Origin: Paenibacillus guangzhouensis
Lineage (GTDB): Bacteria; Bacillota; Bacilli; Paenibacillales; Paenibacillaceae
DNA length: 64,000 bases
Assembly (NCBI RefSeq): GCF_009363075.1
Contig: NZ_CP045293.1
Location: forward strand, 1,178,001 to 1,242,000
Direction: 5' to 3'
Of the stretch, positions 46,352-64,000 are shown in pieces (within the stretch, counting starts at the first letter, position 1; every line of letters begins with the position of its first letter). Position numbers and translations under genes: made by a program. The notes beneath the pieces were generated by a model. The model did not search any database. It was not told the origin of the DNA and was given only the letters and a program-made list of their open reading frames with translations.

Positions 46352-46363
46352 GGGGATAGGAAC

Positions 46364-47644: not shown

Positions 47645-47680
47645 GGGTTATATAATAGAATAGTTTAAGATAATTACAAT

Positions 47681-47712
47681 ATCCACGATCCGATGCGGTT
47701 GTGGATTTTTTG
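47681..47712 (+). terminator. Intrinsic terminator after efeB
   Basis: ATCCAC(GATC) pairs with (GGTT)GTGGAT around a small loop, followed by TTTTTTG. It ends the efe operon. Confidence 0.75.
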
Positions 47713-47942: not shown

Positions 47943-49169
47943 ATGCAAATCGAGCTCACTTTATTTGATTCTAAGAATCCAAATAAAAAGATCGATGTCA
48001 GTCTTCAGGATGATATTCCCATTAGCGAGTTGCTCTCTCAATTATTGAATCTGCTAGATCTGAAGACAATAAGAACAGAGGATGAGGGAAGTCAGATATT
48101 TTATGATGTGATGGTCTCTGGGCCAGACATGCAATGGATTCCACTTCAGTTGTCGCAATCTATTAGTGAAGCGTCCATTATGGATGGGGGATATATTCAA
48201 GTCAGTGAACATTTAGAGCAAGAAGAGGTTGAAATTCCTGTTCAACCAACGATATCCCAAAAAACTAAAGTAAGAAAATCGGAAGAGTCCACTTCGAAGG
48301 AGTCTTTTTTTAAGTTATACAAAGATCGTCGAAGTAAGAAGCAGGAAGAGGATTCTAATTCAAACCCGGAGAATCCTGAACTCGCAAAGCGCATTATGGA
48401 GAGTGCTCAGACAGCGCCGGTTCCTGTGAATCAAGATCGTACAGCTATACAAATCGGTACGAATACGAATGTATTACATGGTCCTGTTTTTGTAGGTTTA
48501 TGTCCAGCCGATGTAGAAGTTGACGCAAGTCAAACGGTGTTTGTATTAGCTTCGTCTTTAGTGAAATTAGGCTATGTGCCGTTGGTCTGTAGTGAATCGC
48601 CTAGGGACATTGCCAACATTGAACAACTTATATTTGAAGGTGCAAAAGAAGATCCCGATGCGATGGTGTTTGGTTTCGATGGCGTGGACTATATGCGTCC
48701 GCACACGACATGGACTTATCATGATCTAATGGAAAGTCATTATACACATATCATTTTTTGGTACGAACATTATGACCATATTCCTGAGAATGATCGAATT
48801 ATTGAATGGTCAAGAACCCATATCCCGTTACTTTTAGCTGACGGTGCTAGATGGCGGATTGATCGGTTACATAAATTTGTACAAAAGGCTGCGATTGATC
48901 GGAAGATTAGTAAATTGCTTTTACAAAATTCACAGCAGGATGTTCAACAAGAAATAATCAAGCACTACCCAGATGTTAATGCTTTATTGATTCCGTATAG
49001 TAATGATCCATTTCGTCCAGATTCTACTGTTGTAAAATGGGTAGGTCAATTATTTACAGCGAAAAAAAGATTACATATTCGTCAAAAAGGACTCTGGATC
49101 TTCATCGGTTCAGCTGCGTTGATATCCATTATCTCGATTACAATTGGATTGTTCATTAAAATTCCTTAA
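47943..49169 (+). CDS. YukD-like domain fused to a degenerate nucleotide-binding-like domain and a membrane anchor
   Basis: A 408-residue protein of unusual build. Residues 1-90 resemble the ubiquitin-like YukD/EsaB fold (ELTLFDSKNPNKKIDVSL, then WIPLQLSQSISEASIMDGGYIQVSE). A charged linker runs to about 165. Residues 170-365 look like a ParA/MinD-type domain that has lost its P-loop: VFVGLCPADVEVDASQTVFV occupies the place of the usual glycine-lysine loop, followed by LVKLGYVPLVCSE. The C-terminal helix (about 384-405) is a membrane anchor. It heads the cluster with EssC and probably acts as an accessory or assembly component; the specific role is unknown. Confidence 0.65.
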   Translation: MQIELTLFDSKNPNKKIDVSLQDDIPISELLSQLLNLLDLKTIRTEDEGSQIFYDVMVSGPDMQWIPLQLSQSISEASIMDGGYIQVSEHLEQEEVEIPVQPTISQKTKVRKSEESTSKESFFKLYKDRRSKKQEEDSNSNPENPELAKRIMESAQTAPVPVNQDRTAIQIGTNTNVLHGPVFVGLCPADVEVDASQTVFVLASSLVKLGYVPLVCSESPRDIANIEQLIFEGAKEDPDAMVFGFDGVDYMRPHTTWTYHDLMESHYTHIIFWYEHYDHIPENDRIIEWSRTHIPLLLADGARWRIDRLHKFVQKAAIDRKISKLLLQNSQQDVQQEIIKHYPDVNALLIPYSNDPFRPDSTVVKWVGQLFTAKKRLHIRQKGLWIFIGSAALISIISITIGLFIKIP

Positions 49170-49198
49170 TAGAAATTAAAGAAGATAGGGGTTGTATC

Positions 49199-52100
49199 AT
49201 GATAACGAAAGAAAAACAAGGAATACTGATTCAGCGGACACCACGTATCATACCGCCAATGGATACAGGGGTTATTAGCATCGAATCAGCTCCTGGAAAA
49301 ATGGAAAAACCCTCGATATCTTGGTTTAGTATATTGTTTCCGCCGATTGCGTTGTTAGGTGTGACGCTCGGTTCAGCAATGCTCATGAAATCAAAAACAA
49401 TACTTTTTTCTGCGATAGGCATGACTGGCGTTTCATTAGTCGTATCGGTCACGAACTATCTATCAACGATTCGGAAGCATACGAAAAAAGAGAACGATAA
49501 AAAATCTAAATATCGCGAATACAGCACGGCAGTGGTTCAAACGCTGGAGAAAGCGAATGTAAAGCAAAGAGAAATTACGCAGTTTGTTCATCCAACCATT
49601 GTTCAATGTGTTGATATCGCCGCCAATTTGGGGAAAAATCTTTGGGAAAGAACCTCCATTGAAAATGATTTTCTACACGTGCGCTTGGGTACGGGGGCGC
49701 AATTGCTAAAAATCCAGGCCGAATTTCCACCTATCAGTACAGCTGCTGATGGAGAAAACGCATTACTATCTGATTTAAAGAAAAGATGTGATTTGGTAAG
49801 CAGTGTGACGGGCGTCCCATTTGCACTTCCTTTGCGTGAGGTTGGATTGTTAGGAGTTGTTGGAAATCGAGCTAGAGTAAGAGAACTAATTAATGCAATG
49901 ATTATTCATCTCACTACTCATCATGGATATGATGATGTGAAAACGGTGTTTCTTTTTTCGCAAGAAGAGCAGGAGCATTGGGACTGGGTGAGATGGCTTC
50001 CACATGTATGGAATGAGGATCGTACGGTACGTTATATGGCTTCGGATCAGATGAGTTTATTGAAAATTATTGAAGAGCTGCACCCATTAATGAAATCTCG
50101 CGAATCTCGTAAAAATGGGTATTCGGAGGCGACAAGCCAGACTCGACTTCCGCATTATATCTTCTTCGTAATGGAACCTGAGTTGTTAGAAAATACAGAG
50201 TTTTTCAATTATCTTCTTATGAACGAGCCTTCATTAGGGATTACGAGTGTGTTCTTGTCCGAAAGGATAGATCTGGATTTGCCGCTCAATTGTCAGACAA
50301 TTATCGAAGCGGGCGAACTTGAGGGTTTCATTCGGCGAGATTTGACCAAGCAAACGGATGATTTCGAGAAAAAAATTGAGTTGGACTATGTTAATGTTCA
50401 AACGTCTGATCAATTTGCTCGCCGATTAGCTCCAATCCGACTAAAAGAAACAGGCGGTAAAAATAAGGTTCCTAATATGGTAACCTTCTTAGATATTTTC
50501 GAAGCAGAAGATGTAAAAGATCTGAATATTATACAACGCTGGAATAAAAATCAATCAAACCGCTCGTTGTCTATTCCTCTTGGAAGATCTGCGGGTGGAA
50601 AGCTATTTATGTTTGATATGCATGAGAAGTTTTTTGGACCACACGGACTAGTAGCGGGTACGACAGGCTCAGGAAAAAGTGAGCTATTACAATCCTTAAT
50701 TCTATCTTTAAGCGTAAACTATCATCCACACGAAGTTGCAATGGTAATCGTCGATTATAAGGGTGGAGGGATGGCGAATGCTTTTATCGGTATGCCACAT
50801 TTAATTGGAACAATTACGAACCTAGGAGGTAATCAAATTAATAGAGCATTAGTCTCAATTAGTAGTGAGCTAAAACGTCGCCAAGTACTATTTAGCCAAT
50901 TAGGTGTGAACAGCATTGATAATTATATTCTGCGATATCGTGAAGGTGATGCTAAGATTCCATTGCCACATTTGATTATTATCGTCGATGAATTCGCGGA
51001 ACTCAAATCGGATCAACCGGAGTTCATGAATGAATTAATTAGTGCAGCACGTGTTGGACGGAGTCTAGGTGTTCATCTTGTACTTGCAACACAGAAGCCT
51101 TCAGGTGTAGTCAATGATCAGATATGGAGCAACTCCAGATTTAAATTATGTCTGAAAGTTCAAGACATATCTGATAGTCAAGAGATGCTCAAACGTCCGG
51201 AAGCTGCGGAAATCAAAGAACGGGGGCGCGGTTACCTGCAGGTAGGGAATAACGAAGTGTTCTCATTATTCCAATCGGCATGGAGCGGTGCTCCGTATCA
51301 ATTAGAACAAGAAGAAGCCGATATGCAAGTATATCAAATTGGTCTGAATGGTGCGCGTCATGAGACACGCTGGCAGCAGAAGGAAAGCAAGCAACAGGTA
51401 GATCAGGTTACACAATTACAAGCGGTAGTTCAGCAGATTATTCATACGGCAGAGAAGAATCATATTCAAGCGGTGCAGCCGTTATGGTCAGAACCATTGC
51501 CTGAACGACTACTGCTTCAGGATTGCTTCAACCTTCCAAATTCTATTGGGGAACAAACAATCCAAAGAACAGAAGGCTTAATGATGACAATAGGGATGGT
51601 AGACGATCCTGCTAGACAGAATCAATTTTCTTTTCAATCGGATTTGTCGAAGGATGGTCATATTCTTATTTATGGTGCCCCTGGTAGCGGGAAGACTACG
51701 CTTTTAAAGACGATCATGACTTCATTAGCAACCAGCTATACGGCGGATGAATTGAATTTTTATATTTTGGATTTTGGGTCTCGCACGTTATCTGTTTTTA
51801 AAGAATTACCTCATTTTGGGGATATTCTATTTGTTGAAGATGAGGACAAGTTAAATAAGCTAATTAAAATGCTATTGCAAGAGTTGGATGATCGGAAAAA
51901 ACTATTTTCCTCTCTAGGTATCGCGAACATTACATCTTATCGAAATATGACTAAAGCTTCAATCCCAGCGATCGTCGTGATCCTGGACAACTATACCGCA
52001 TTCTCAGAGAACTATAGTGATGAGGTCGCGCATTTCATTACCTTTGTTCGAGAAGGTGGCAATTATGGAATCCACTTGATTATGACGGGAACGGCATCTA

Positions 52101-53188
52101 ATACATTTTCTTACAAATTATCGCAAAACGTACGTCAGCATATTCCTTTACAAATGGCAGACAAATCGGATTATTATGCTCTAGTAGGCCGTGCAGAGGG
52201 ACTTGAGCCAGATCAAGTCGCAGGGAGAGGCTTAGCTAAGTTTGATGTTCCGTTAGAGTTCCAAACGGCGCTACCTTGTGAAGGTGATTCCGATGAAGAA
52301 GTAACGCTTCGTTTGCGTGAATTAGCACAACAAATCGGAGAGAACTGGCAGGGTAAGAGAGCGCGGAAGGTACCATCAATTCCAACTATCCTAAGCGCGG
52401 ACGAACTGTTGGAACGAGTTGAAGAAGAAGGTATCAGGGAAAAAGACGAATCAGAGCTCTTCCCGATTGGTCTGAACTTAGAGACAACAGCACCAGTATA
52501 TTTCAGGTTGATTGATTTCTTTAGCTGTATATATTCATATACGGATTCGGATCAAGTGCAACCGATGATACAGTCGATGGTTACCATATGGAATCGTTCC
52601 ATAGCTCAAGATCAACTTCAAATTCACATGATCGATGGTGTAGATCAACCTTTAGTACCAACAATGAGACGATCTGATACGATTCACACCTATGTTTCGA
52701 CTAATCAACAATTGCAGGATTACACAAAATGTATCATTAATGAATTGCAGCAACGCAAGGATGCAAGCAGAAAAGCTGCGGCATTAATTCCTGAGGATGA
52801 GTTTTTTGATGAATTTACATTTATTTCTAACACATATCCTCGTCTTTTTATTTGTATCACGGATGTTCAACAAATCAGCGGTATGTTGAATGAAGAGATT
52901 GAACTTGCGTTAGAACGAATAGCCAGATTCGGTAAAGGTCTTGGTATCTATCTTTTTGTCTGTGCGAACGCTTCGGATATTAGTCGTCTGAAGCATGAGT
53001 ATGCCTTTATGAGTGCCTTTATCGATCGTAAATGCACGATTGTATCTGGGGCAACCTTACAGCAACATGACGTTTTCAGTCAAGAATATAGCAGTATACC
53101 ATATCAAGAGCAGAGTAAAGAGATGGGTGAACATGTAGGTTGGTTACTGCGTAATAACCAGAAGCATAAGTTAAAGCTACCGTCGTAA
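49199..53188 (+). CDS. essC: Type VII secretion ATPase EssC/YukB-like, without FHA domains
   Basis: A 1329-residue FtsK/SpoIIIE-type ATPase, the motor of type VII secretion. Two membrane helices (about 41-62 and 67-88) come almost at once; the two N-terminal FHA domains of classical Firmicute EssC (about 1480-1500 residues) are missing. ATPase domain 1 has Walker A GTTGSGKS at about 487-494 and Walker B IIIVDEFAEL; domain 2 has GAPGSGKT at about 826-833 and VVILDNYTAF; domain 3 (from about 1085) has no P-loop, with FFSCIYSYTDSDQVQ at its expected place. It is the only EssC gene in the window and precedes the WXG100-like genes. Confidence 0.87.
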   Translation: MITKEKQGILIQRTPRIIPPMDTGVISIESAPGKMEKPSISWFSILFPPIALLGVTLGSAMLMKSKTILFSAIGMTGVSLVVSVTNYLSTIRKHTKKENDKKSKYREYSTAVVQTLEKANVKQREITQFVHPTIVQCVDIAANLGKNLWERTSIENDFLHVRLGTGAQLLKIQAEFPPISTAADGENALLSDLKKRCDLVSSVTGVPFALPLREVGLLGVVGNRARVRELINAMIIHLTTHHGYDDVKTVFLFSQEEQEHWDWVRWLPHVWNEDRTVRYMASDQMSLLKIIEELHPLMKSRESRKNGYSEATSQTRLPHYIFFVMEPELLENTEFFNYLLMNEPSLGITSVFLSERIDLDLPLNCQTIIEAGELEGFIRRDLTKQTDDFEKKIELDYVNVQTSDQFARRLAPIRLKETGGKNKVPNMVTFLDIFEAEDVKDLNIIQRWNKNQSNRSLSIPLGRSAGGKLFMFDMHEKFFGPHGLVAGTTGSGKSELLQSLILSLSVNYHPHEVAMVIVDYKGGGMANAFIGMPHLIGTITNLGGNQINRALVSISSELKRRQVLFSQLGVNSIDNYILRYREGDAKIPLPHLIIIVDEFAELKSDQPEFMNELISAARVGRSLGVHLVLATQKPSGVVNDQIWSNSRFKLCLKVQDISDSQEMLKRPEAAEIKERGRGYLQVGNNEVFSLFQSAWSGAPYQLEQEEADMQVYQIGLNGARHETRWQQKESKQQVDQVTQLQAVVQQIIHTAEKNHIQAVQPLWSEPLPERLLLQDCFNLPNSIGEQTIQRTEGLMMTIGMVDDPARQNQFSFQSDLSKDGHILIYGAPGSGKTTLLKTIMTSLATSYTADELNFYILDFGSRTLSVFKELPHFGDILFVEDEDKLNKLIKMLLQELDDRKKLFSSLGIANITSYRNMTKASIPAIVVILDNYTAFSENYSDEVAHFITFVREGGNYGIHLIMTGTASNTFSYKLSQNVRQHIPLQMADKSDYYALVGRAEGLEPDQVAGRGLAKFDVPLEFQTALPCEGDSDEEVTLRLRELAQQIGENWQGKRARKVPSIPTILSADELLERVEEEGIREKDESELFPIGLNLETTAPVYFRLIDFFSCIYSYTDSDQVQPMIQSMVTIWNRSIAQDQLQIHMIDGVDQPLVPTMRRSDTIHTYVSTNQQLQDYTKCIINELQQRKDASRKAAALIPEDEFFDEFTFISNTYPRLFICITDVQQISGMLNEEIELALERIARFGKGLGIYLFVCANASDISRLKHEYAFMSAFIDRKCTIVSGATLQQHDVFSQEYSSIPYQEQSKEMGEHVGWLLRNNQKHKLKLPS

Positions 53189-53255
53189 AATGGAAGATCT
53201 TGACGAATAAGATATAATTGACTATTATACTAATATGTTACAAGGAATGATCTTA

Positions 53256-53945
53256 TTGGAATATGAAGATGATTTTGACATAAAGCTTTCGATAGGTGAA
53301 CTTGCTTATCTCGTAGCTCTTATAGGTGGAACAAATCTTAGAGGTATAGAATATTCTTTCGATCATTTGCATGAAAGCGAGTTGCGTCAACGATTTGAGT
53401 CCATTCAACAGAAACTTGAGAACAAAGGCTTTCTTCGTGTGAATTTCGATGGAACCGTTCAAATGGATCAAGCAGTTCATGACGTCATCTCAGCAGTAGC
53501 TTTTTGTAATCGAGTCATATTGCAAAAAACAAATGAATCGGAAGAACAGAAATCCTATCACTATTATGTTTATGGTGGGTCGACGTTAGAAATGCAAGTT
53601 GAAGAGGATCAATGTGTACTTCGTCCGTTGCGAGCAATCTATGAATTACAAGCAACCATGATTGAGCGAAGTGGATTTCTACAGCATTATGATTTTGACG
53701 AGGCAATAGATTCTCAAGATCTCTCTATCGAAGAAATTGAAGAGAATATTTCTAGCCTTTGTAGCATTCACTGTTGTCACCTGGAGAATGAGCAGATTGT
53801 AGCAGAGCGCGAAGTAAGTTTTACGACTTCCGATTCTATGCTCTATCAAATAAAAGTAGATAAAGAGGTAGATGGTACTCTAACTCCTTCGCTGAATCCT
53901 GTTTCTCTTCAATGGGTTGTTCAAGCGATTAACCAAATCCTTTGA
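53256..53945 (+). CDS. Unrecognised 229-residue protein in the type VII cluster
   Basis: I do not recognise a family for certain. The protein is acidic, soluble and mixed alpha-beta; residues 8-75 (LSIGELAYLVALIGG, LRQRFESIQQKLENKGFLRV) look like a winged-helix start, and the rest is strand-rich. In position and general form it could be an EspG-like chaperone for WXG100 substrates, but this is inference. The TTG at 53256 is 9 bases after AAGGA; ATG codons in frame at 53235 and 53247 are less well placed. The stop is 16 bases before the first WXG100-like gene. Confidence 0.6.
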   Translation: MEYEDDFDIKLSIGELAYLVALIGGTNLRGIEYSFDHLHESELRQRFESIQQKLENKGFLRVNFDGTVQMDQAVHDVISAVAFCNRVILQKTNESEEQKSYHYYVYGGSTLEMQVEEDQCVLRPLRAIYELQATMIERSGFLQHYDFDEAIDSQDLSIEEIEENISSLCSIHCCHLENEQIVAEREVSFTTSDSMLYQIKVDKEVDGTLTPSLNPVSLQWVVQAINQIL

Positions 53946-53961
53946 GGTGGGGAATGATGAG

Positions 53962-54297
53962 ATGCATTCAAGCACAGTATTTGCAATGGAAGCCAAGTTA
54001 GCTCCATTAATTGCAAGATCGCAAGAAGTATCGAGTGAGATGAAGCAGAAAACGCAGAATAGTTCAAGTTACTGGAGTAATTTTGGGCAACTAGAGTTTC
54101 AACAGAATACGGAAAAATGGGTTAAAAACATGAATAATTACGCGCAAACACTTCGATCTTTACAGAGTAGTATTCACGCTTACGGAGTACAGCTACGAAA
54201 CGAGGAGATTGAAGCTGAACGACGAGAAGCTCAACGTCGAGAAGCTGAGCGTGCAAGAGCCCAAGCAGCAGCAGCAGCTTCTTCAAGAAAGAAATAA
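53962..54297 (+). CDS. WXG100-like small protein with charged C-terminal tail
   Basis: A 111-residue helical protein. Residues 1-80 match a WXG100 helical hairpin in pattern, with the turn at SSYWSNFGQ (Trp38), though Trp-Ser-Asn-Phe-Gly replaces Trp-x-Gly. Residues 81-111 form an Arg/Glu/Ala helix that ends in SSRKK. The ATG at 53962 is 9 bases after GAGGTGGGG; in-frame GTG at 53947 lies in that site. It sits between the unrecognised protein and the second WXG100 gene, so it could be a heterodimer partner or a substrate of the EssC system. Family membership is based on pattern only. Confidence 0.65.
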   Translation: MHSSTVFAMEAKLAPLIARSQEVSSEMKQKTQNSSSYWSNFGQLEFQQNTEKWVKNMNNYAQTLRSLQSSIHAYGVQLRNEEIEAERREAQRREAERARAQAAAAASSRKK

Positions 54298-54360
54298 TAA
54301 CTGGTTTACTCTCTTCAAGGAAGAGTTTAAATAATATACGAATCAAAGGGGATGACATTT

Positions 54361-54654
54361 ATGGCAGATTTAACAGTCTCGTATGAAAGTCTTAATCAGA
54401 AGTCAAGGGAAATGGATCAACACAAAAACAATTTCCATACGCTTATTGGTCAAGCAAAAACTACGATAGGCGGATTATCGGCAGCTTGGAAAAGTGATGC
54501 TCAGGCACAATATGAACAACGATTTCATGAACTTGAACCAACATTTAAAAAATTCGAACAAATGTTAGAAGAGTATGCGAAGTTCCTTAAAACTTCATCG
54601 GATCACTATCGTGCAGCTGATGAAGCTGTGAAGAAAGCAGCTCAAGGATTCTAA
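54361..54654 (+). CDS. WXG100-family protein EsxA-like
   Basis: A 97-residue WXG100 protein of normal length. The turn is AAWKSDAQAQY with Trp43 and Ser at the glycine position (WxS), a known variation; both flanking helices are amphipathic. Near the C-terminus YRAAD (Tyr83 to Asp87) satisfies the YxxxD/E secretion signal that EssC recognises. The ATG at 54361 is 10 bases after AAGGGG; an ATG at 54352 is too near the site. It is likely both a substrate and an allosteric activator of the EssC ATPase. A terminator-like hairpin follows. Confidence 0.85.
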   Translation: MADLTVSYESLNQKSREMDQHKNNFHTLIGQAKTTIGGLSAAWKSDAQAQYEQRFHELEPTFKKFEQMLEEYAKFLKTSSDHYRAADEAVKKAAQGF

Positions 54655-54669
54655 TATGGCGAACAACAG

Positions 54670-54697
54670 AGGCTATGCATCGTGCATAGTCTCTTTT
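54670..54697 (+). terminator. Intrinsic terminator after the EsxA-like gene
   Basis: AGGCTATGCA (54670-54679) pairs with TGCATAGTCT (54683-54692, one wobble) around TCG, followed by CTTTT. It may allow high EsxA yield, or separate this unit from the Tad-like genes. Confidence 0.7.
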
Positions 54698-54979: not shown

Positions 54980-56113
54980 ATGTTGCGATCGAGAAGAAAT
55001 AAGAAAATTATGTTTTATTTATTGTTAGTGGGGATCACTGCTGTAATTGTGACGAGTTCGGTAGGATTCATGAGTTATCGTTTTTTTAATGCGAAGTTAC
55101 TTAAAGAGAGAACTTTATATGAGAACAAGCTCGCCGAAAAGTCTCAACAATTGGCTTTATATGAAGTAAAGAGCCACCAAGGATTTGTTCTTAAGAACAA
55201 GAAAAAAGCAGGAGAAACTATTAACGAAGAAGATATTGTTTCCTTGAAACTACCTGATTATTTCACACCCATAGATCTAATTGATACGAGAGAGAACATC
55301 GTAGGCAAAGTGATTAAGATTAACGCAGATACAAACACAGCAATTACGAACGAAATGGTTTATGCGAATGGCCCACTTGATCCGAGCCTTCGCAGAGAAG
55401 AAGTGGAATACATTAAATTGCCTCTTGAACTTAAGAATAAAGATACGGTAGATATACGGATTGTTTATCCGAACGGCGAAGATTACATCGTCGTATCGAA
55501 GAAGAAATTGGACGTAGTCAATCAGGAGAAGCAGCTTGCATTTTTTAATAGTGTTGAAGAAGAAGCACTTTTATTACAGTCTGCTCTTGTCGATGCTTAC
55601 ATTAACAATGCTGAATTATATATGAAAAAATATATAGAGCCTGAAATGCAGCCTGAGCCGATTGTAACCTATACGCCAAATAAAGATGTCATTACTGTAT
55701 TAAAAACAAATCCACAAATTCTAAATCAGGCAAAATGGAAGTTAAGTCTAAAAATACGTGAAGGTCTAGAAGACCGATTGAAGTTGATCGAAGATAAGGA
55801 TCGTATTCGAGTAGGTGCGGATGCACCGTCTGGCAGTGCAGTATCCAAACGTAAAGGAAATGATGGAGCAGTTCCTGCAAATCAATCAAATCCGAATGGA
55901 ACAGCTACAGGTGTCGAAGGAACGGTCAATAACAATAATCCACAGGTCATTCAACCAGAAGGATCTTCAACATCTACGAAAGAACCGACTTCCAGTATCG
56001 ATTCTAGTTCTATCCATTCCACGGATAATGACGATACTGGAGTAACGAGCAATTCTACCACGGATAATTCAGTAAATACCGAGGATCAGAATTCCAGTCT
56101 CTTAGGGAGGTAA
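54980..56113 (+). CDS. SAF-domain (CpaB/RcpC-like) pilus assembly protein
   Basis: A 377-residue protein with a membrane helix at about 11-34, a coiled stretch, and an SAF-type domain (about 62-135; GFVLKNKKKAGETINEEDIV, LPDYFTPIDLI, IVGKVIKINADTNTAIT), followed by DTVDIRIVYPNGEDYIVVSKK. This is the CpaB/RcpC arrangement of Tad pilus systems, where the protein sits outside the membrane. Residues 287-377 are a Ser/Thr/Asn-rich low-complexity tail with no known role, possibly in the cell wall. It heads the second unit of this region. Confidence 0.75.
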   Translation: MLRSRRNKKIMFYLLLVGITAVIVTSSVGFMSYRFFNAKLLKERTLYENKLAEKSQQLALYEVKSHQGFVLKNKKKAGETINEEDIVSLKLPDYFTPIDLIDTRENIVGKVIKINADTNTAITNEMVYANGPLDPSLRREEVEYIKLPLELKNKDTVDIRIVYPNGEDYIVVSKKKLDVVNQEKQLAFFNSVEEEALLLQSALVDAYINNAELYMKKYIEPEMQPEPIVTYTPNKDVITVLKTNPQILNQAKWKLSLKIREGLEDRLKLIEDKDRIRVGADAPSGSAVSKRKGNDGAVPANQSNPNGTATGVEGTVNNNNPQVIQPEGSSTSTKEPTSSIDSSSIHSTDNDDTGVTSNSTTDNSVNTEDQNSSLLGR

Positions 56114-56115
56114 GC

Positions 56116-56694
56116 ATGAGATTAATCGTAGCGGGAGATTGTGAAAAGCATGATTTTATCTTGACTGTTGCAAATTTAATTCATTCATATTACCCAGATC
56201 AATCTCTTGTGATCGTGACAGATCATTCGCGACATTATCGATATTTTCAAGATTCGGGGATTCCTATTCACATGGATTTCTCGATTGAACGAACTGAAGA
56301 TATTGTTATCTATGATCTACATTGCGACATTCCGGATGATGTTGTGACAGAGAATACGAAAATTGTATTTGCTACCAGCTTTGAGCGTTGCTCCATTGAA
56401 GCCGCAACGCAGTTCTCAAGAATCATTACACCATTGGCGCTAATGATGATAGGATCCGAGTGTAACATCAATGAGAAATATATCAAGCTGAATATACCGA
56501 TTCGTGTCGATTATTTTGGTTATTACGACAATAGCATAAGAAGAATTGATTGGGTTTTTGAGGGGAGTACTCGATTTACGAAGCTTGACAAGGATTTCAA
56601 AGAGGCAGTGGAGTTTTATTTGACAGAGATTGTTGAAATCCCAAGTAAAGACCTGAAGAAGCTTTGGTCTTTTGCCAAGAAGAGAGGGAAATAA
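56116..56694 (+). CDS. Degenerate MinD/CpaE-like protein, 192 residues
   Basis: I do not recognise this protein with certainty. The start MRLIVAGDCEKHDFILTVAN, followed by SLVIVTDHSRHYRYF and IVIYDLHCDIPDD, has the strand-loop-helix rhythm of a ParA/MinD-type domain, but the loop after the first strand (GDCEKHDF) has no glycine-lysine P-loop. Hydrolysis of ATP is therefore unlikely. No membrane segment; C-terminus basic (KKRGK). It starts 2 bases after the SAF gene stop and ends just before a second CpaE-like gene. It could form a pair with it as a scaffold. Confidence 0.6.
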   Translation: MRLIVAGDCEKHDFILTVANLIHSYYPDQSLVIVTDHSRHYRYFQDSGIPIHMDFSIERTEDIVIYDLHCDIPDDVVTENTKIVFATSFERCSIEAATQFSRIITPLALMMIGSECNINEKYIKLNIPIRVDYFGYYDNSIRRIDWVFEGSTRFTKLDKDFKEAVEFYLTEIVEIPSKDLKKLWSFAKKRGK

Positions 56695-56696
56695 AG

Positions 56697-57524
56697 ATGT
56701 TGGTTGCTTTTTGGGGACCCGTGCATGGTCAAGTGCGTACAACAAGCAATATGATCGCTATATCTACGATGTTAGCACTGGATTATCAGATGCGAATATT
56801 AATCACACATACGCATGCTGAGCGTTCTACACTGGAAATGGCCTATTCTAAATTACGTCAAGTAGATATCTATCGCGAAGTAGCTGCAGGAATGGATGGA
56901 ATTGAGCATTTAGCTCAATGTGGCATGTTAACACCTGAGAGTATTAAAGATAATGCGGAGTCTATTGTACATGATCGACTAGATCTTATTCCGGGATTGA
57001 CGAATCTTGATGTGAAGTCATTTAAACGGACACTGCCTTTTATCATTGAATCTGCTCGCCGATTCTATAATCTCACATTTATTGATGTATCATCGGGAAC
57101 AAAAAATGAAATTTCACAATATGTCATGGAGCAAGCAGATTTAGTGGTGGTTAATTTGAACCAAAACTCTTCGGTACTGGATACCTTTTTCAGTCGACAA
57201 GATTGGCCATCCATATTAGATCAGAAGCCAGTCATTTATTGTCTGGGATCCTATGAAAGAAATTCGAAAATGACCACGCAACGCATAGCTTCTCGCTATT
57301 CTGTATCGCGTAAAAAGATTGGGGCGATACCTCACAATTATCGTTATATGGATGCACACAATGAGCAGCATATTATTGATTTTCTGCTTCGTGCGAGATC
57401 GCGTGAGAAGAAGTTCCTTCAGCATGATGAAGAAGTGTATTTTACAGAATCGGTTAGGAACGTAGGAAAACAAATATTGCATGGTCTGGGTCTGGTGCCG
57501 CTGCAAGGGGATGATGATGATTGA
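56697..57524 (+). CDS. CpaE/MinD-like protein with altered P-loop
   Basis: A 275-residue cytoplasmic protein of the CpaE/TadZ type. The fold start MLVAFWGPVHGQVRTTSNMI and the later FIDVSSGTKNEI (Walker B-like) and ADLVVVNLNQN strands align in order with MinD/ParA. In the P-loop the GKTT of active enzymes is replaced by VRTT, so the catalytic lysine is Arg; nucleotide binding may be weak or lost. TadZ/CpaE proteins localise Tad pili at the pole. The ATG at 56697 follows AGAGAGGG. The C-terminus is acidic and its stop overlaps the TadA start. Confidence 0.75.
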   Translation: MLVAFWGPVHGQVRTTSNMIAISTMLALDYQMRILITHTHAERSTLEMAYSKLRQVDIYREVAAGMDGIEHLAQCGMLTPESIKDNAESIVHDRLDLIPGLTNLDVKSFKRTLPFIIESARRFYNLTFIDVSSGTKNEISQYVMEQADLVVVNLNQNSSVLDTFFSRQDWPSILDQKPVIYCLGSYERNSKMTTQRIASRYSVSRKKIGAIPHNYRYMDAHNEQHIIDFLLRARSREKKFLQHDEEVYFTESVRNVGKQILHGLGLVPLQGDDDD

Positions 57525-59367
57525 GATCATCCTAATTGTCATCGTAGTGCTTGGAATTATAACATTTCTATACTTCTGGATGCGACGGAATAAAGGCGCG
57601 ATTCACCGAATAGAGGAAGCCAGATTCGACTTCGACAGTATTCAAAAATATGTCAGTGATGCACTTCAGAATTTTATGGAGTCCTCACTCTATGAGGGTA
57701 ATCCTAGCACCGAAGAATATAATCGCCGAAAGGCAAGACGAAATGAATTACGCAAAGCGCTTCGAAGCTGCATGCATGGTAATCTATCAACAAAGAAGTA
57801 TGTCAAAATTTTCATTCGCACCGTTTTGGATCACTATGGATTTAATGAGTTCAATGTGAACCAAGTGATTCCGTTTGACCGAGCGGAGCGTCTAACTCCA
57901 CAAGATTGCTTCGATATTATTTTACAGCAATACATGAAAGAACATGATCGAGATGCGCTGAACCAACTTATTCAGAAATATCATCTAGATGAATTAAAAC
58001 CATACGCTACGGGCTCCAAGGGGTATAAGATTACTTCGGAAGAGATTAGACAGATTTATCAGGCAGAGCAATTTGATCTATCCTTCAACGATAAGATGGA
58101 TGTTATCGTTCAACGTGTTTACCAATCTTTCAAAGGTCTGGGGGTTATTGATGAGATTCGCGATCAAAAAATTGATGGCGTAAACGGTGGAACTAGTGGA
58201 GTACCAACAGATATTGCTCAATCTATGGATGCTGCTCATTATTTGGATCAAACCTATTCAATACCCAAAACCTATGATGCGGTCTGGATCTTCTATCGAG
58301 GGAAATCGATTCATCTTGAGTTTCTAAGTTTTGGTTCCGAGCTGGAGTTAAAACGTGTATGTCAAAATATTTATACATTCGGTAATCCAGGGCAATTGAA
58401 TGAAGCAAAAGGATTTATGGTTAATGATATGGCCGATGGAAGCCGGGTTGTTGTCGTCAGGCCCAAAATGTCTGAAAGCTGGGCATTTTTCGTACGGAAA
58501 TTTGATGTGCGTATCGTCGAAATCGAAGACTTGATTAAGGGCGAAAATGCCTTCTTACCGATCATGATGAGTAAGTTTCTGATTAAAGGGGAACGAATCA
58601 CAGCGGTTACGGGTCGACAAGGTTCTGGTAAAACAACATTGATGATGGCGTTGATTGGATTTATTAATCGAAGACACAACATTAGGGTGCAAGAGATGTC
58701 TTTCGAGCTTAGAGCTAGAAAAATGTATCCTGATCGAAATATTTTAACTTTCCGAGAGACGCCGACGATTAGTGGACAAAAAGGATTGGATACCCAAAAG
58801 AAAACAGATGGAAGTGTCAGTATTCTAGGAGAAGTAGCTGATCATCCTGTTGCCAGCCTCATGGTTCAAATTGCGCAGGTTGCCTCCGAATATACGTTCT
58901 TCTCCCATCATGGCAAGACCTTTCCGAACCTAGTCAGCGCACTTAGAAATAGTCTAATCGCGGACGGTGCTTTCTCGAATGAAAAGGCTGCAGAGAAACA
59001 GGTTGTGGATGTTCTAGGGTTTAACATTCATTTGGATATGACAGCATCTGGGAAACGGTTCGTTGAACGAATTACAGAATGTATTCCACTTGAAGATGAT
59101 GACGATTATCCGATGCACTATAAAGAACAGGATAACTTAAATCAGAAACTGGATGCCATAGCAGATACATTAAGAGAGTATTTCTATCGTCAAACCGATC
59201 GTAAGACTTATACATACCAAGATATTATCGTATGGGAACAAGACAAGTACGTTGCGAAGAATTGTCCGACAGATCGGAATATTATGGCGATGCTCAATAA
59301 GATGGATGATGCAGATGCGGATGATTTTATTTCGTTCCTGGAAGAAAATTGGGGGTATGTCATTTGA
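57517..59367 (+). CDS. TadA/CpaF-type secretion ATPase with N-terminal membrane helix
   Basis: A 616-residue hexameric ATPase of the type II/IV secretion superfamily. An N-terminal helix (about 2-20) would anchor it in the membrane, unusual for TadA. Walker A is GRQGSGKT at 366-373; Walker B is SVSILGEVAD near 425, and the His box is SHHGKTFPNLVSALRNSL near 465. The N-terminal domain (residues 25-330) is larger than in typical CpaF. Three ATGs overlap; 57517 has the best spacing to GCAAGGGG and overlaps the preceding stop. It powers the fused membrane protein encoded next. Confidence 0.8.
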   Translation: MIEIILIVIVVLGIITFLYFWMRRNKGAIHRIEEARFDFDSIQKYVSDALQNFMESSLYEGNPSTEEYNRRKARRNELRKALRSCMHGNLSTKKYVKIFIRTVLDHYGFNEFNVNQVIPFDRAERLTPQDCFDIILQQYMKEHDRDALNQLIQKYHLDELKPYATGSKGYKITSEEIRQIYQAEQFDLSFNDKMDVIVQRVYQSFKGLGVIDEIRDQKIDGVNGGTSGVPTDIAQSMDAAHYLDQTYSIPKTYDAVWIFYRGKSIHLEFLSFGSELELKRVCQNIYTFGNPGQLNEAKGFMVNDMADGSRVVVVRPKMSESWAFFVRKFDVRIVEIEDLIKGENAFLPIMMSKFLIKGERITAVTGRQGSGKTTLMMALIGFINRRHNIRVQEMSFELRARKMYPDRNILTFRETPTISGQKGLDTQKKTDGSVSILGEVADHPVASLMVQIAQVASEYTFFSHHGKTFPNLVSALRNSLIADGAFSNEKAAEKQVVDVLGFNIHLDMTASGKRFVERITECIPLEDDDDYPMHYKEQDNLNQKLDAIADTLREYFYRQTDRKTYTYQDIIVWEQDKYVAKNCPTDRNIMAMLNKMDDADADDFISFLEENWGYVI

Positions 59368-61445
59368 TTACTTCCCAACTACTCAAACTCGTCGTCATTT
59401 CGTTATTCGTAATATTAGGTTTACTCATAGGGACTCTTGTATTCGTGAATTATCGATTACGAGATTCTAAGTATCAAGAGCAGCGAAAATATATCGCAAT
59501 GCTGCCTAAGAAAAAGAAGAATCAGAAATGGTTCATATTTGCTTCCAAGATGTATCCATATATGCGTAAAATCCCAGTAGTCAAGACGATCCTAGCGAGA
59601 ATACGTAAACGTTTCTTGATATTACATGCTGGGGATGAACGAATCGTTCGCAGTCAATCTGCGAGTGTTACCTTGATTATCAGTAGTACGATTGTCGTTC
59701 TAACGATTGTATCTTTTATCTGGACGAACTCATGGTCCATGCGCCTATCTATATTTCTGGTCGCTGTCTATATCGGAAGTTTTCTCAGTGATATGTTCAT
59801 TGCGCGCGAAGAAAAAAAATTACTGCATGGACTATCTGAGTTATGCCTAGATATTCGTCATGAATACCATCAGACCTATATGGTAGGTAAAAGTATCGAA
59901 CAGGCAGCCGAGCGTTCCAAAACTGTAGTGGCTAATCATGCAAGGAAGATCAATGGTGTTCTAAATGCGATTGATACGAACGAGGAATTAAGGCTCTACT
60001 ACGATGTCGCACCTAATCGGTATTTGAAGCTCTTGGCGGGGATCAGCCATAATATTGCCGAGTATGGCGATACAAATGTTCACGAAGGTGAGAAGTCGCT
60101 GTATTTGCAAGCCCTTGGGAATATTCGTGAAGAGATTCATTTGGACATCACGCGACGGAATCGTCTGGATAATCTGCTAGCCGGTATTGTCTTTATTGCT
60201 CTGTCGCCTGTATTCATGCTCGAACCGATTAAGAATTGGGCAGAGTCACAATTTCCTATCGTTAGCGATTTTTATAATTCAGCCTTTGGGTTGTACACGC
60301 TAATAGGATTATATCTTATTTACATTGGTTGTTTCTTTGGATTACGGGTTATTAAAGGGATGGATGGAGACTCACAGACAGTAAAGGAAGAAGGAGAATT
60401 TCTTCGACAACTGCTGCGGATCAAATGGATCCATAAGATTGTAGAACGATTTGTGCCTGCGGAACGAGAATCTTCGCATTTTCGAACGATGAGACAGATT
60501 AGAGAGGCAAGTTCCAAGCTAACCTTAAGCCAATTTTATTTGCAAAAGCTGTTGTTCGCACTCGTCATATTCACCAGTGTGATTGTCGTTCAATTCTATA
60601 TTCATGCGACGATCAAACACAATATGATGTACCCTAACATTAAGATTGTGACGGGAGGCAATCAGCCTAGCTCACAAGTATATATCGCGGAGCAGAAGTA
60701 CTACTTTGAGGCTAATATATTACAAGAATTAAGGAAGAAGGAGCTTCCAGAGGATCTGGTGGTTGCCTATATCAATGAACAATTAGAGCAACAAAGCTTC
60801 ATGCCTCGACAGGCTGAACGTGAGAAACTAGCGGAAGAGATCGGTGCCAAATTTCAAAAATACAATCAAGAGTATTATCGCTGGTATGAATTGCTCATTG
60901 CTTTTGCCGTTGCCTTAAGTGCTTATCGTATCCCGAACTTACTACTAATGATTAGGCGTCAAATGCGTCGATGGGAAATGCAAAATGAAGTCGATGGATA
61001 TAACTCGATTGTGATGATGTTATCCAAAATAGAACGGATTAGCGTCTTTGAGATGATTGATTGGCTGCATCGGTATAGTTATATTTTTGAATCCCAGCTA
61101 TTACGTTGTCTGCTGGAGTATGAAGCGGGGGCATGGCAGGCGCTTGAAAGACTGAAAGACGAATGCAATTTTGTTCCATTAGAAAGAATCGTGGACCGTC
61201 TTCAGGTCGCAGCCGAGCTCATTCCGATTAAAGATGCTTTTGATGACATGGAGCAAGAACGCGTTTTTGCAATGGACCAAAGGAAACTTCACTACGAGAT
61301 CATGGTGAGTCGAAAGAGTACTCTTGGGAAGTTAATCGGTTTTCTACCTTTACAGGCAACCTTCGTGATGTATTTGTTGGTACCATTCGGATACTTAGCA
61401 TTTGTACAGCTTGGTGAATTAAACGTGGTCACGAACACGATGTAG
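59364..61445 (+). CDS. TadB-TadC fused T2SSF membrane protein
   Basis: A 693-residue membrane platform protein. Hydrophobic helices lie near 5-26, 107-150, 275-330, 390-412 and 510-530 and at the C-terminus, arranged around two cytoplasmic regions that resemble the T2SSF domain: ELCLDIRHEYHQTYMVGKSIEQA near 165 and SIVMMLSKIERISVFEMIDWL near 550. In classic Tad systems these two are separate genes, tadB and tadC; here they form one chain. It starts with TTG at 59364, sharing TTGA with the preceding TGA. It should form the inner membrane ring for the pilus under the TadA ATPase. Confidence 0.78.
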   Translation: MITSQLLKLVVISLFVILGLLIGTLVFVNYRLRDSKYQEQRKYIAMLPKKKKNQKWFIFASKMYPYMRKIPVVKTILARIRKRFLILHAGDERIVRSQSASVTLIISSTIVVLTIVSFIWTNSWSMRLSIFLVAVYIGSFLSDMFIAREEKKLLHGLSELCLDIRHEYHQTYMVGKSIEQAAERSKTVVANHARKINGVLNAIDTNEELRLYYDVAPNRYLKLLAGISHNIAEYGDTNVHEGEKSLYLQALGNIREEIHLDITRRNRLDNLLAGIVFIALSPVFMLEPIKNWAESQFPIVSDFYNSAFGLYTLIGLYLIYIGCFFGLRVIKGMDGDSQTVKEEGEFLRQLLRIKWIHKIVERFVPAERESSHFRTMRQIREASSKLTLSQFYLQKLLFALVIFTSVIVVQFYIHATIKHNMMYPNIKIVTGGNQPSSQVYIAEQKYYFEANILQELRKKELPEDLVVAYINEQLEQQSFMPRQAEREKLAEEIGAKFQKYNQEYYRWYELLIAFAVALSAYRIPNLLLMIRRQMRRWEMQNEVDGYNSIVMMLSKIERISVFEMIDWLHRYSYIFESQLLRCLLEYEAGAWQALERLKDECNFVPLERIVDRLQVAAELIPIKDAFDDMEQERVFAMDQRKLHYEIMVSRKSTLGKLIGFLPLQATFVMYLLVPFGYLAFVQLGELNVVTNTM

Positions 61446-61458
61446 AGGAGTTGCGTTG

Positions 61459-61947
61459 ATGGAAAATTTACAAACCTATTTGAAGTGGGTCATTGGACTA
61501 TTATTCACGTTAGTCATCATAGGCGCGGGGATTATGATCTGGAATCAAACGCAGCCTATGATGCAAATGGCCAATCGACAAGCGGCAGAGCAGGCACAGG
61601 CCATTGCCGATGACGAGTATTCAGCCTATGACTATCAACTTGTAAGTGGCTCACAAGTACTTACGGCTGTTCGTCGTTATGCGATGAAAGAGGTTTTCTA
61701 TATCTATGTGAAGACGAACACGAGTGAATTCGGCGTGAGGCTGAGTGATGCAGCGACAACATGCCCGAAGTTTGATTACAGCAGTGGAACGATCGATACG
61801 AGCGGAATTACCGGATGTTATACCACAACCAAGGAAATGATGGAGATTTCCGATACGGATTATGTTCCACCGCAAGCAAGATTTCGTTCAACACTGCTCA
61901 GAGATGGCAATGACCGAATTACAGGAATTTATTTTAGACAACAATAA
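61459..61947 (+). CDS. Pilin-like membrane-anchored protein A
   Basis: A 162-residue protein: an N-terminal hydrophobic helix (about 8-29, WVIGLLFTLVIIGAGIMIW) after a short polar start, then an extracytoplasmic part. The first half has EYSAYDYQLVSGSQVL followed by RRYAMKEVFYIYVKT, which recurs with changes in the next two genes. There is one Cys pair (Cys near 96 and 113). The layout is that of a prepilin or pseudopilin, but I see no classic cleavage motif at the start and name it by context only. TTG at 61456 is the alternative start; ATG at 61459 follows GAGGAG. Confidence 0.65.
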   Translation: MENLQTYLKWVIGLLFTLVIIGAGIMIWNQTQPMMQMANRQAAEQAQAIADDEYSAYDYQLVSGSQVLTAVRRYAMKEVFYIYVKTNTSEFGVRLSDAATTCPKFDYSSGTIDTSGITGCYTTTKEMMEISDTDYVPPQARFRSTLLRDGNDRITGIYFRQQ

Positions 61948-61976
61948 CATTTAAATGATATGGAGGGTTCATAGTT

Positions 61977-62489
61977 ATGGAAAATATATCGACGGGTCTG
62001 AAATGGGCAATTGGGATTATTGTAACACTTTTGATTATTGCGGCAGGGATTAGCGTGTATCTCGTCGCGAATGGGTATTTTACAAGAGCGCAGCAGCAGA
62101 CGACTTCGCAATCGCAAATGTTAAGTCAAGCGGAGTATGCGATTTATGATAATAAGAATGTGACTGGTAAAGATGTTATCGATGCAGCGACGCGTTATCA
62201 GGATCGTCCGGAGTTTTCGGTGATTGTAAGAACTCGTATCAATAAGACTGGATATTATACTAAGAGCAGTTATACGAATAGTTTATATTCCAAAAATTCA
62301 AACAATGCAGGAGCATTTGCAGTTAAAGGTGCCGAGAGTGGTCTGGATACGGGAATTTCAACTACCGCTATGACAGATCCTTCAAAATTAGAAAGTTATG
62401 TCAACCCTACTGGTATTTTTTCAGCAAATATTTATCATGACGAAAACGGAGAAGTCCGTCTTGTAGAATTTGTACAAAAAGGACAATAG
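61977..62489 (+). CDS. Pilin-like membrane-anchored protein B
   Basis: A 170-residue protein with an N-terminal helix (about 9-30, WAIGIIVTLLIIAAGISVYL) and an extracytoplasmic domain. EYAIYDNKNVTGKDVI followed by ATRYQDRPEFSVIVRT is the counterpart of the block in protein A. The middle is rich in Ser, Asn and Tyr, and the end (SANIYHDENGEVRLVEFVQKG) resembles the end of A (RDGNDRITGIYFRQQ). It is probably a paralogue of A and part of the same filament. TATGGAGGG precedes the ATG. Confidence 0.65.
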   Translation: MENISTGLKWAIGIIVTLLIIAAGISVYLVANGYFTRAQQQTTSQSQMLSQAEYAIYDNKNVTGKDVIDAATRYQDRPEFSVIVRTRINKTGYYTKSSYTNSLYSKNSNNAGAFAVKGAESGLDTGISTTAMTDPSKLESYVNPTGIFSANIYHDENGEVRLVEFVQKGQ

Positions 62490-62509
62490 TATGCTTTGGG
62501 GTTAAACAA

Positions 62510-62875
62510 ATGAACAATCTTCTAAAATTCTTTTTCACACTTATTGCGTGGATTGTGTTCATGGTGGCGGGAATTCCTTATTTAACGACTGAACTAACGG
62601 AACGAGTGAAGCCACTAGAATCGAATGCTAACGAGGTTAATGCTGCCCCTTATGTGGGCACAGCAGATCTATCCATCCAATCTGGGGCTCAAGTCGTTGG
62701 ACTTGTGCCTTATGCATTAGCGGGTGATTTCGATTTGTATATTGATGGCTTATATATCACCCATATGACAGACATCTCAACGATTAATCTCAGTGGTGTA
62801 ACCACGCTAGATTATAAGATTTCGATCACGAGAGATGCACTAGGCACGATCCGAACGATCTATGCATCACATTAG
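62510..62875 (+). CDS. Pilin-like membrane-anchored protein C
   Basis: A 121-residue protein: an N-terminal helix (about 5-25, FFFTLIAWIVFMVAGIPYL) and a short outside domain. IQSGAQVVGLVPYALAGDFDLYIDG is the counterpart of the block in A and B, and the C-terminal RDALGTIRTIYASH resembles theirs. The three genes are consecutive, suggesting repeated duplication. Length is close to Flp pilins plus a domain. It follows protein B by 20 bases. No cleavage site is recognised. Confidence 0.62.
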   Translation: MNNLLKFFFTLIAWIVFMVAGIPYLTTELTERVKPLESNANEVNAAPYVGTADLSIQSGAQVVGLVPYALAGDFDLYIDGLYITHMTDISTINLSGVTTLDYKISITRDALGTIRTIYASH

Positions 62876-62892
62876 GCAAGGGGGAGGCTACA

Positions 62893-63438
62893 ATGGTTGA
62901 TGCACTGAAAGCAACTTTTGTCATTCTTCTATTGACCATTGCTTTTGTCGTCTATCCGACGCTGCGTTCTGCTGAGAAGCATGAAGAAACGACTAGGAGT
63001 GCGGCCAGGGCCGCTGTTGTCACATTCGTAGATACGACACGGGGAAAAGGTTACGTTGATGTGCGAGATTATAATCAATTGCTTCGATCTTTAGATGCAT
63101 CCGGCGGGGTGTTTGAGGTTACACTGGAGCGATATCAGAAGCTTATTCAGCCAACGTATACGGACCCAACAGATTTTTCAACGTTCCAGAATACTTTTAC
63201 GGTTCGATACGATGGATTCTTTACGCAAGAGATTCTTCAGGTGTTATTCCCGAACACGAACGTTCCAGATGATGATCCAACAAGAAGATACAACATGCAT
63301 GCAGGCGATCTGTTTAATGTCCGTATTGAGTCTAGAGGGACTACATTGGCTGGAAGAATGCGGTCACTCCTTTTCCGTGGCACGAATATACCAATCATAG
63401 AACGATATGGGGGTATGGTTCGAAGTGAAGCCCCTTAG
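62893..63438 (+). CDS. Membrane-anchored pilus-cluster protein, 181 residues
   Basis: An N-terminal helix (about 5-24, LKATFVILLLTIAFVVYPTL) and an extracytoplasmic domain. The segment GYVDVRDYNQLLRSLDASGGVFEVTLERY (shown here only by its ends: VDVRDYNQLL and SGGVFEVTLE) recalls small proteins in other Firmicute Tad-type clusters that carry a Y-x-x-x-L-x-x-x-G-x-x-x-x-V-x-L-E pattern; these are poorly characterised. GGGGGAGG precedes the ATG. The next gene begins 14 bases before its stop. A minor pilin or TadE/F-like role is the best guess. Confidence 0.6.
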   Translation: MVDALKATFVILLLTIAFVVYPTLRSAEKHEETTRSAARAAVVTFVDTTRGKGYVDVRDYNQLLRSLDASGGVFEVTLERYQKLIQPTYTDPTDFSTFQNTFTVRYDGFFTQEILQVLFPNTNVPDDDPTRRYNMHAGDLFNVRIESRGTTLAGRMRSLLFRGTNIPIIERYGGMVRSEAP

Positions 63439-64000
63439 TATTGTTTTGTTGTTTTTGATTATTGCCCTAGGGTTAGGGATGAGCCAAGATGCGAGGCAGG
63501 ATATAAATGAACGACACGTGCAGACACAGAAGGAATACGCCAATGCTTTTCAAGCTGCTGTTGATGACACGGGGGCTTATCTCGCTCGATTTGAGGCCCA
63601 ACAAGTGACTTCTGGGATTCGTTATCAGCGAGAGAAGCAACTCGCATTCGATATGGATATTTTGAATGTGTTTTATGATAATCTAGCGCTGAAGTTCGGA
63701 ATTGAGAGCAATTCAGCTGCAATTCAAAACTTAAAGGTACATATTCCAGCAATGGTCTTATTCCATTATAACGGCTACGAGCTTGTTACATTGGAAGATC
63801 GGTTGAATAACGGTGGGCAAACGGAGTTAACACCTGTGTTTTGGCCTATTCGTGCGTATAACTATACGCTGTCGAATGGGAATATATTATATTTCACACT
63901 CGATGATCAAGTGACGATTTATGATCGATATAACAACCGTTTTCTCCAGGATTCTTTTTCGGATATACAAGCTATCACCAATACTGCACCCTTAGATGAT
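63425..64000 (+). CDS. Membrane-anchored pilus-cluster protein, cut by window end
   Basis: An open frame of 192 codons that runs off the window, beginning with GTG at 63425, 14 bases inside the preceding gene. The start MKPLSIVLLFLIIALGLGM is a hydrophobic helix; a coiled part (ARQDINERHVQTQKEYANAF) and a mixed domain follow, with no recognised fold. By position it is one more membrane-anchored component of the Tad-like system, possibly a TadE/G-like minor pilin. No family name is assigned. Confidence 0.6.
   Translation, partial: MKPLSIVLLFLIIALGLGMSQDARQDINERHVQTQKEYANAFQAAVDDTGAYLARFEAQQVTSGIRYQREKQLAFDMDILNVFYDNLALKFGIESNSAAIQNLKVHIPAMVLFHYNGYELVTLEDRLNNGGQTELTPVFWPIRAYNYTLSNGNILYFTLDDQVTIYDRYNNRFLQDSFSDIQAITNTAPLDD

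Follow-up and report, generated by a model that had tools for sequence, protein, structure and literature searches.

The closest described relatives of the locus treated here are the type VII secretion systems (T7SSs) of the subtypes T7SSg and T7SSh. T7SSh was defined by Garrett, Higginson and Palmer in 2024 (PMC11217815) and comprises TshA, TshB, TshC, TshG and TshM, encoded beside Tad genes. According to that paper, T7SSg and T7SSh always adjoin Tad genes; whether the two are linked was left open, and coincidence was raised. It also mentions a likeness of TshG to EspG and a possible Ser/Thr kinase likeness of TshM, describes for ESX-5 the docking of the ubiquitin-like domain of EccD on EccC, and cites in the discussion Tad pili in contact-dependent killing. 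Here, we present the analysis of a gene cluster of Paenibacillus guangzhouensis in which a type VII block (47943-54654) is followed by a Tad-like block (54980-64000 and beyond). Positions refer to the window, i.e. the 64,000 nucleotides of contig NZ_CP045293.1 from 1,178,001 to 1,242,000, and all genes of the cluster lie on the plus strand. The reference for T7SSh components was the locus of Paenibacillus sp. HW567 (L062), a strain of PMC11217815.

The window cluster is a T7SSh type VII system. Counterparts of all five components are present, that of TshG being a candidate. In common with T7SSh are an EssC without FHA, a WXG100 and a YukD-like protein, counterparts of TshG and TshM, and adjacent Tad-like genes. 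In contrast to the described system, TshB and TshM are fused and encoded ahead of essC, and we read TshM as MinD/TadZ-like, whereas PMC11217815 points to a possible kinase likeness. T7SSg, by its description there, likewise has an EssC without FHA and adjacent Tad genes in Paenibacillus, but its DUF5050 propeller (TsgL) was not seen among the genes scanned here. With T7SSb (EssC/EssB/EssA/EsaA) the locus shares EssC, WXG100, YukD and polymorphic toxins; it differs in that the genome has no EssA, EssB or over-cut-off EsaA and that EssC lacks FHA. A TadA-type ATPase, CpaB-like and TadZ-like proteins and a polytopic protein after TadA recall the Tad/Flp type IVc pilus, whereas Flp pilin, A24 peptidase and a recognisable T2SSF are missing from the cluster. 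As in EccD of the ESX systems (T7SSa), a ubiquitin-like domain is joined to a membrane-anchored protein; however, EccD is polytopic according to PMC11217815, whereas a MinD-like domain and one helix are found here. The adjacency of T7SSh and Tad genes was already published in 2024 (PMC11217815) and is therefore not new. For the YukD::TshM fusion, for TshM read in this way and for a pairing that recurs in further EssC groups, no published account was found in the literature searched; specifically, the sections of PMC11217815 consulted gave no description of Tad pairings in the T7SSc-like and FHA-bearing groups.

Genes of the type VII and the Tad-like set are interleaved and share their inheritance, neither EssA nor EssB is present, and the YukD component is fused to TshM, homologues of which are encoded ahead of cpaB in several Tad-like clusters. 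On this basis we tentatively prefer, at odds slightly short of even, the reading that the EssC translocase and the Tad-like membrane machine of the T7SSh locus are functionally coupled and probably form one composite apparatus. Taken separately, it is likely that the two blocks are coupled in function, and one composite machine is plausible.

Results

The original prediction had named EssC, a YukD-domain protein and two WXG100-like proteins in 47943-54654, and all ORFs (open reading frames) that it listed are indeed open. EssC (TshC, 49199..53188), an FtsK-SpoIIIE ATPase, reached 1290.5 bits with T7_EssCb_Firm (TIGR03928; cut-off 778). No FHA domain was found in it, as had been proposed: residues 1-400 are without any Pfam match at E 0.01, and hydrophobic helices are predicted only from residue 40 onwards. 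Together with the HW567 EssC it belongs to one clade (13 T7SSh rows, support 100). The TshG candidate of 236 amino acids (53235..53945) has a homologue at the same place in HW567 (48 bits in L062); none was recognised in P. turpanensis (L061). Of the two WXG100-like proteins, one is unambiguous (54352..54654, 48.7 bits in Pfam) and is a candidate for TshA or a toxin partner; the other (53917..54297), whose true start is uncertain, is weak, with 18.6 bits in Pfam and 24.3 bits in NCBIfam, both below cut-off.

The YukD domain is part of the TshB::TshM fusion (47943..49169), which was assigned by means of Pfam YukD, fold matches, a profile chain and the counterpart in P. anaericanus. The protein consists of a YukD/ubiquitin-like domain (residues 1-91), a linker, a degenerate MinD/ParA (TadZ-like) domain (about 180-313) and one C-terminal transmembrane helix; this hydrophobic helix of TshM spans residues 386-404. 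The N-terminus gave 20.7 bits with Pfam YukD, below the cut-off of 27, but is modelled as a ubiquitin fold. (In folding alignment A4, the last YukD strand was misplaced; A2 and A5, with misplaced short YukD rows, were not used for folding.) P. anaericanus has the same YukD::TshM fusion, with 84% identity. In the other 16 T7SSh genomes, YukD (TshB) and TshM are unfused products of neighbouring genes, and a WXG100-like gene homologous to 53917-54297 is located between tshM and cpaB. TshM is homologous to the HW567 protein and looks like a degenerate, membrane-anchored protein of MinD/TadZ type: a two-step profile chain leads from it to TadZ-like proteins, and the model contains a MinD-type fold. 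No match was found between TshM and the CpaE-like family of the cluster, none better than E 0.25 between the TshM family profile and the PDB, and none in a phmmer search with the fusion protein. With respect to the kinase likeness, no Pfam family matched the TshM of L035 at E 0.1. At an EssC-free Tad-like locus (L053, 13362-14879), the place of TadZ is taken by a protein in which a Ser/Thr kinase domain (131.7 bits) is joined to a degenerate MinD-like domain. The N-terminal domain of the TadZ-like protein looks exchangeable, with kinase, YukD and others as variants. When TadZ-like proteins of T7SSh, T7SSc-like and stand-alone loci were compared by hhalign over their N-terminal regions, no match was obtained, and the term receiver-like for these regions is only an impression.

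The predicted set of CpaB-, CpaE-, TadA- and TadB/C-like proteins is real but divergent. The CpaB-like protein (54980..56113) has one N-terminal helix and a weak ChapFlgA match (16.7 bits); its homologues in two relatives contain SAF above cut-off (42.4 and 26.4 bits). It is followed by a conserved 192-residue protein (56116..56694) and by the soluble CpaE-like protein (56694..57524), whose P-loop is degenerate by eye and whose family profile aligned to the stand-alone TadZ-like profile with 88.4%. The divergent TadA-type ATPase (57511..59367), with one N-terminal hydrophobic helix, gave 36 bits with TIGR03819 and 24.0 bits with T2SSE (just under), both below cut-off; its family profile picks up the true TadA of the genome with 77 bits. 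A C-terminal extension of the TadA-like protein was considered as a T7SS marker and rejected, as near-full-length matches occur also in EssC-free genomes, e.g. G104 and G050. The polytopic membrane protein in the place of TadB and TadC (59349..61445) is about twice their length and was called TadB/C-like from its position and helix spacing only. T2SSF does not back this label: none was detected in the protein, its 19 family members had no match better than E 0.13 among the matches listed, and hhalign found no match to the genome's own TadB and TadC. The last five genes code for small anchored proteins, and each of these has, as predicted, one N-terminal hydrophobic helix: s163 of the s170 family (61456..61947), s170 (61977..62489), which has up to five tandem paralogues in other loci, s121 (62510..62875), s181 (62893..63438) and s332, whose start lies in the window (63407..64000; 332 residues, ending at 1406 of L003). 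In L146 (11241-14000), five s170-type genes occur in tandem, the last truncated by the end of the stretch, which fits a repeated structural subunit. The cluster can fairly be said to encode a Tad-like machine and no classical Tad pilus; the name Tad-type pilus in the original prediction was too strong for a cluster having neither Flp, nor A24 peptidase, nor a recognisable T2SSF.

The genome (6.95 Mb, two contigs) contains a classical Tad locus 3 Mb from the window (L150, contig C1, 4.228-4.237 Mb) with TadA, TadB, TadC, a Flp1_like pilin, an A24 peptidase and, by eye, TadE/F-like genes. Its T2SSE match has 187 bits, its two T2SSF genes have no equal elsewhere in the genome, and the sole A24 match of the genome, at 4.23 Mb, lies beside the 63-residue Flp1_like ORF (62.3 bits). 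The original prediction had noted that EssA, EssB and EsaA are absent from the window, and no complete essA-essB-esaA set was found elsewhere: the whole genome gave no EssA match at E 0.001, no EssB match and, for EsaA, five sub-cut-off matches, the best with 83 of 122 bits. The latter were rejected as EsaA, as the profile also matches 4 of 14 control genomes, in one of them above cut-off; we take them to be YhgE/Pip-type proteins.

An EssC of the T7SSh group (E <= 1e-280) was found in 16 of 394 Paenibacillaceae genomes, and a Tad-like cluster lies directly downstream in all 16 (the window, seven loci and eight loci). A scan of genome contigs yielded 13 loci, ten of them T7SSh; eight were from genomes among the 16, and two genomes, P. 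oenotherae and P. turpanensis, were added. All ten have the Tad-like cluster as far as the sequence extends. In loci of Ruminococcus, Fructobacillus and Aurantimonas, which are distant EssC/FtsK matches, no Tad-like gene was recognised. Hence, co-occurrence of FHA-free essC and tadA, which the original prediction had proposed to check across Paenibacillaceae, is seen for T7SSh EssC in 18/18 genomes, with the Tad-like cluster directly following; none was found without. All T7SSh loci detected belong to Paenibacillaceae (5 of 19 genus codes), and the named ones are all Paenibacillus.

In order to judge other EssC groups, a sample of 245 genomes was used, which contains 105 EssC matches above 600 bits (counted by eye); 83 were examined, and the other 22 are all of the 750-bit class by score. 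A Tad-like cluster is linked to EssC in 8/8 T7SSh, 9/10 T7SSc-like and 5/8 FHA-bearing loci, altogether 22/26. Near the remaining EssC genes it was seen in 0 of 57 loci (26 in the class of 900 bits and 31 in that of 750 bits), where neighbourhoods covered about 8 kb per side, so that a partner 8.5-10 kb away would be missed. For 20 of the 57, a TadA-like gene is on the same contig, the nearest among the matches listed being about 190 kb or more away; in G005, G117, G093, G125, G164 and G141, the best TadA-like match is weaker than the matches listed. The T7SSc-like group is represented by vWA (30.5 bits), kinase (31.0 bits, just below cut-off) and YukD (27.8 bits) matches in L048. In its tenth locus (G007), a TadZ-like gene directly precedes essC, and the block from cpaB to s332 is on another contig. 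FHA scored 71.0 and 59.7 bits in two members of the FHA-bearing group; one of its loci, L078, was counted as linked from s181 and s332 only, as the contig begins there. The five linked loci of this group (L077/L145, L078, L079/L146, L080/L143, L081/L144) encode an EssC of about 1540-1600 residues with an N-terminal FHA, two WXG100-like proteins and, nearby, a distant Tad-like cluster, possibly a T7SS-Tad pairing that has not been described before. Between s332 and essC lie 34-62 bases at six T7SSc-like loci and 2.6-3.4 kb at the five linked FHA-bearing ones.

The pairwise distances among EssC proteins are correlated with the distances among the TadA-like (0.937), TadB/C-like (0.921), CpaB-like (0.961) and CpaE-like (0.846) proteins and TshM (0.934), and none of 2000 shuffles reached values as high. 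This shows joint inheritance and not contact. In the EssC tree (FastTree, with long-branch warnings), T7SSh is split from the other FHA-free groups with a support of 84, and the 750-bit class is not one clade, as L049 and L075 branch beside T7SSc-like linked loci. In the TadA tree, which was rooted on the FHA group by choice and into which 8 of 20 further loci (L014-L033) entered (one of these, L014, is identical with L051), three groups are set apart from each other: T7SSh together with two EssC-less loci, T7SSc-like, and FHA-bearing. Stand-alone clusters lie between the first two. A single old pairing of EssC and Tad-like genes with later losses is compatible with both trees.

Downstream of s332 follows a polymorphic toxin array of about 35 kb, whose frames have common N-termini of about 560 residues and differing C-termini. 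It contains long frames of 766, 747 and 713 residues, a 677-residue frame with a more internal start, and fragments. About 14 kb on, ahead of the 713-residue frame, s332 occurs a second time. With its tandem toxin frames, putative immunity genes and repeated segment of s181 end, s332 and toxin start, the array (L003 and L093, C1 about 1.242-1.278 Mb) resembles an array of orphan cassettes. Among its C-termini is one EndoU nuclease (105 bits). In T7SSh relatives the toxins include Colicin-DNase/WHH with a SUKH-type immunity protein (HW567), Peptidase_M74 (P. anaericanus) and Endonuclea_NS_2 (P. herberti); no LXG family was found at E 0.1 in the toxin frames scanned. Toxins with homologous N-termini are also encoded at some EssC loci for which no Tad-like genes were seen, as detailed below, but not at the EssC-free Tad-like loci L041, L042 and L050-L053 (0.7 to about 23 kb after s332 covered); therefore, the toxins seem to belong with EssC.

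Several neighbouring features were noted in passing. Directly upstream of the cluster lies an EfeUOB-like iron uptake set (43615-47644; genes for an FTR1 permease, an imelysin-type protein and a Dyp peroxidase), which is followed by a terminator-like hairpin (47681-47706). Near Tad-linked EssC genes, Lipase_3-type frames (L044 13676-15016 and L077 3591-5213; 31.3 and 29.6 bits) recall the "reverse" lipases of PMC11217815. In L045 (10187-11358), a pair of transposase-like ORFs with an rve integrase core match of 85.5 bits is located among surface-protein genes between s332 and essC.

Discussion

The interleaved genes and the one fused protein hint at joint work of the type VII and Tad-like sets, and the YukD::TadZ-like fusion and the gene interleaving argue for more than mere proximity. 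In the mechanism that we envisage, the ubiquitin-like domain would dock on EssC, by analogy with the EccD domain on EccC in ESX-5, and the TadZ-like part of TshM would hold EssC against the TadA-type motor. The motor and the polytopic protein would build a structure across the wall from CpaB and the small anchored proteins, and this might act as has been suggested for EsaA in T7SSb. The polymorphic toxins of the downstream array, paired with WXG100 proteins, would be exported towards competing bacteria.

The following observations weigh against such a coupled machine. Concerning locus architecture, the gap of 325 bases (54655-54979) between the WXG100 and the CpaB-like gene, which the original prediction had given correctly, contains a terminator-like hairpin (54668..54694, plus strand) of 12 pairs with a T-rich tail. 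It argues against simple co-transcription of the two blocks here; note that 47600-64000 contains 10 terminator-like sites versus 10.4 in shuffles, this one being the richest in pairs of the ten. In three of nine linked T7SSc-like loci, s332 and essC are 8.5-10 kb apart. Concerning a pilus-like structure, no A24 prepilin peptidase was found in the window cluster by the whole-genome search, no Flp family was listed for the cluster genes, and the AlphaFold model of s170 (weak, pLDDT 68) has no PDB match at E 0.001 that would support a pilin. Concerning TshM, direct alignment to the stand-alone TadZ-like profile is weak (58.5%), hhalign found no match to the true TadZ of the genome, and the model of the fusion has a low mean pLDDT of 55.9. 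A TadZ-like gene precedes cpaB in three of six EssC-free Tad-like loci (L051-L053) and is missing from the other half. EssB exceeds the Pfam cut-off in 0 of 245 Paenibacillaceae genomes, with one sub-cut-off match (G135); its absence is a family trait, which does not single out the locus and does not by itself demand a substitute here. Tad-like clusters mostly occur without EssC: TadA-like matches reaching 1e-90 are present in at least 136 of the 245 genomes, versus 22 EssC loci with one near. P. guangzhouensis itself has a second, EssC-free cluster (L053, C1 about 2.70 Mb), and in G092 and G232, sister loci in the T7SSh-Tad clade, cpaB to s332 are kept in genomes without T7SSh EssC. The distance correlation would also result from co-inheritance at one locus. 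Finally, four EssC loci of the 900-bit class (L069, L070, L109, L111) have homologous toxin N-termini and no Tad-like genes in the stretch examined; EssC systems seem to carry or export such toxins without a Tad-like partner. The three distant T7SSc-like loci and the TadZ-like gene missing from half of the EssC-free loci slightly lower the odds of a coupled machine.

The strongest alternative, to which we assign roughly one chance in three, is that two separate machines are kept together: the Tad-like one as an adhesive or contact structure and T7SSh for toxin delivery, with TshM only co-placing or regulating them. The hairpin between the blocks and the separate occurrence of Tad-like and EssC modules are in line with this, as are the Tad pili in contact-dependent killing cited in PMC11217815 and the EssC-free locus L042, where a stalk-type protein (Cu_amine_oxidN1, 110 bits) and large secreted proteins follow, suggesting surface structures. 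However, two independent machines would not lead one to expect a WXG100-like gene within the Tad-like gene order, the YukD fusion, or a T7SSh never found without the Tad-like cluster (18/18). It is improbable that TshM alone was recruited to the type VII system, the other Tad-like genes being functionally unrelated and nearby by history. Where the blocks part, the TadZ-like gene stays with essC, both in G007 and in G092/G232, where neither essC nor a TadZ-like gene was found within the 20 kb examined; yet the Tad-like block is kept in 18/18 T7SSh genomes and the pairing is repeated in two other EssC groups. A coincidental neighbourhood, raised by PMC11217815 itself and favoured by the non-independence of T7SSh loci from one family, is very improbable in view of the fusion and of a pairing that recurs in three EssC groups whose gene orders differ.

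The composite secretion system envisaged by the original prediction has thus been strengthened by the lack of EssA, EssB and an over-cut-off EsaA in the genome, the presence of a Tad-like cluster with T7SSh in 18/18 genomes, the fusion and the interleaving, and weakened by the hairpin, the Tad-like rather than pilus character of the cluster, the family-wide absence of EssB and the many solitary Tad-like clusters. Had either cluster usually occurred without the other, this would have spoken against it; such independence applies to the Tad-like clusters, but not to T7SSh EssC.

The route by which type VII substrates pass the thick wall of Gram-positive bacteria is not settled, and PMC11217815 left open whether the Tad neighbours of T7SSg and T7SSh take part. 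One joint between the machines is suggested by the fusion, by the WXG100-like gene among the Tad-like genes and by TshM read as a protein of MinD/TadZ type, and the pairing in the T7SSc-like and FHA-bearing EssC groups suggests a rule wider than T7SSg and T7SSh. In its full form our proposal is more speculative than coupling at the T7SSh locus: toxins paired with WXG100 proteins may be passed by the type VII translocase, via a ubiquitin-like::TadZ-like adaptor, to a pilus-like structure that is driven by TadA and crosses the wall, a partnership made or kept in three EssC groups of the Paenibacillaceae. If this is true, it would supply the trans-envelope part that these T7SSs lack.

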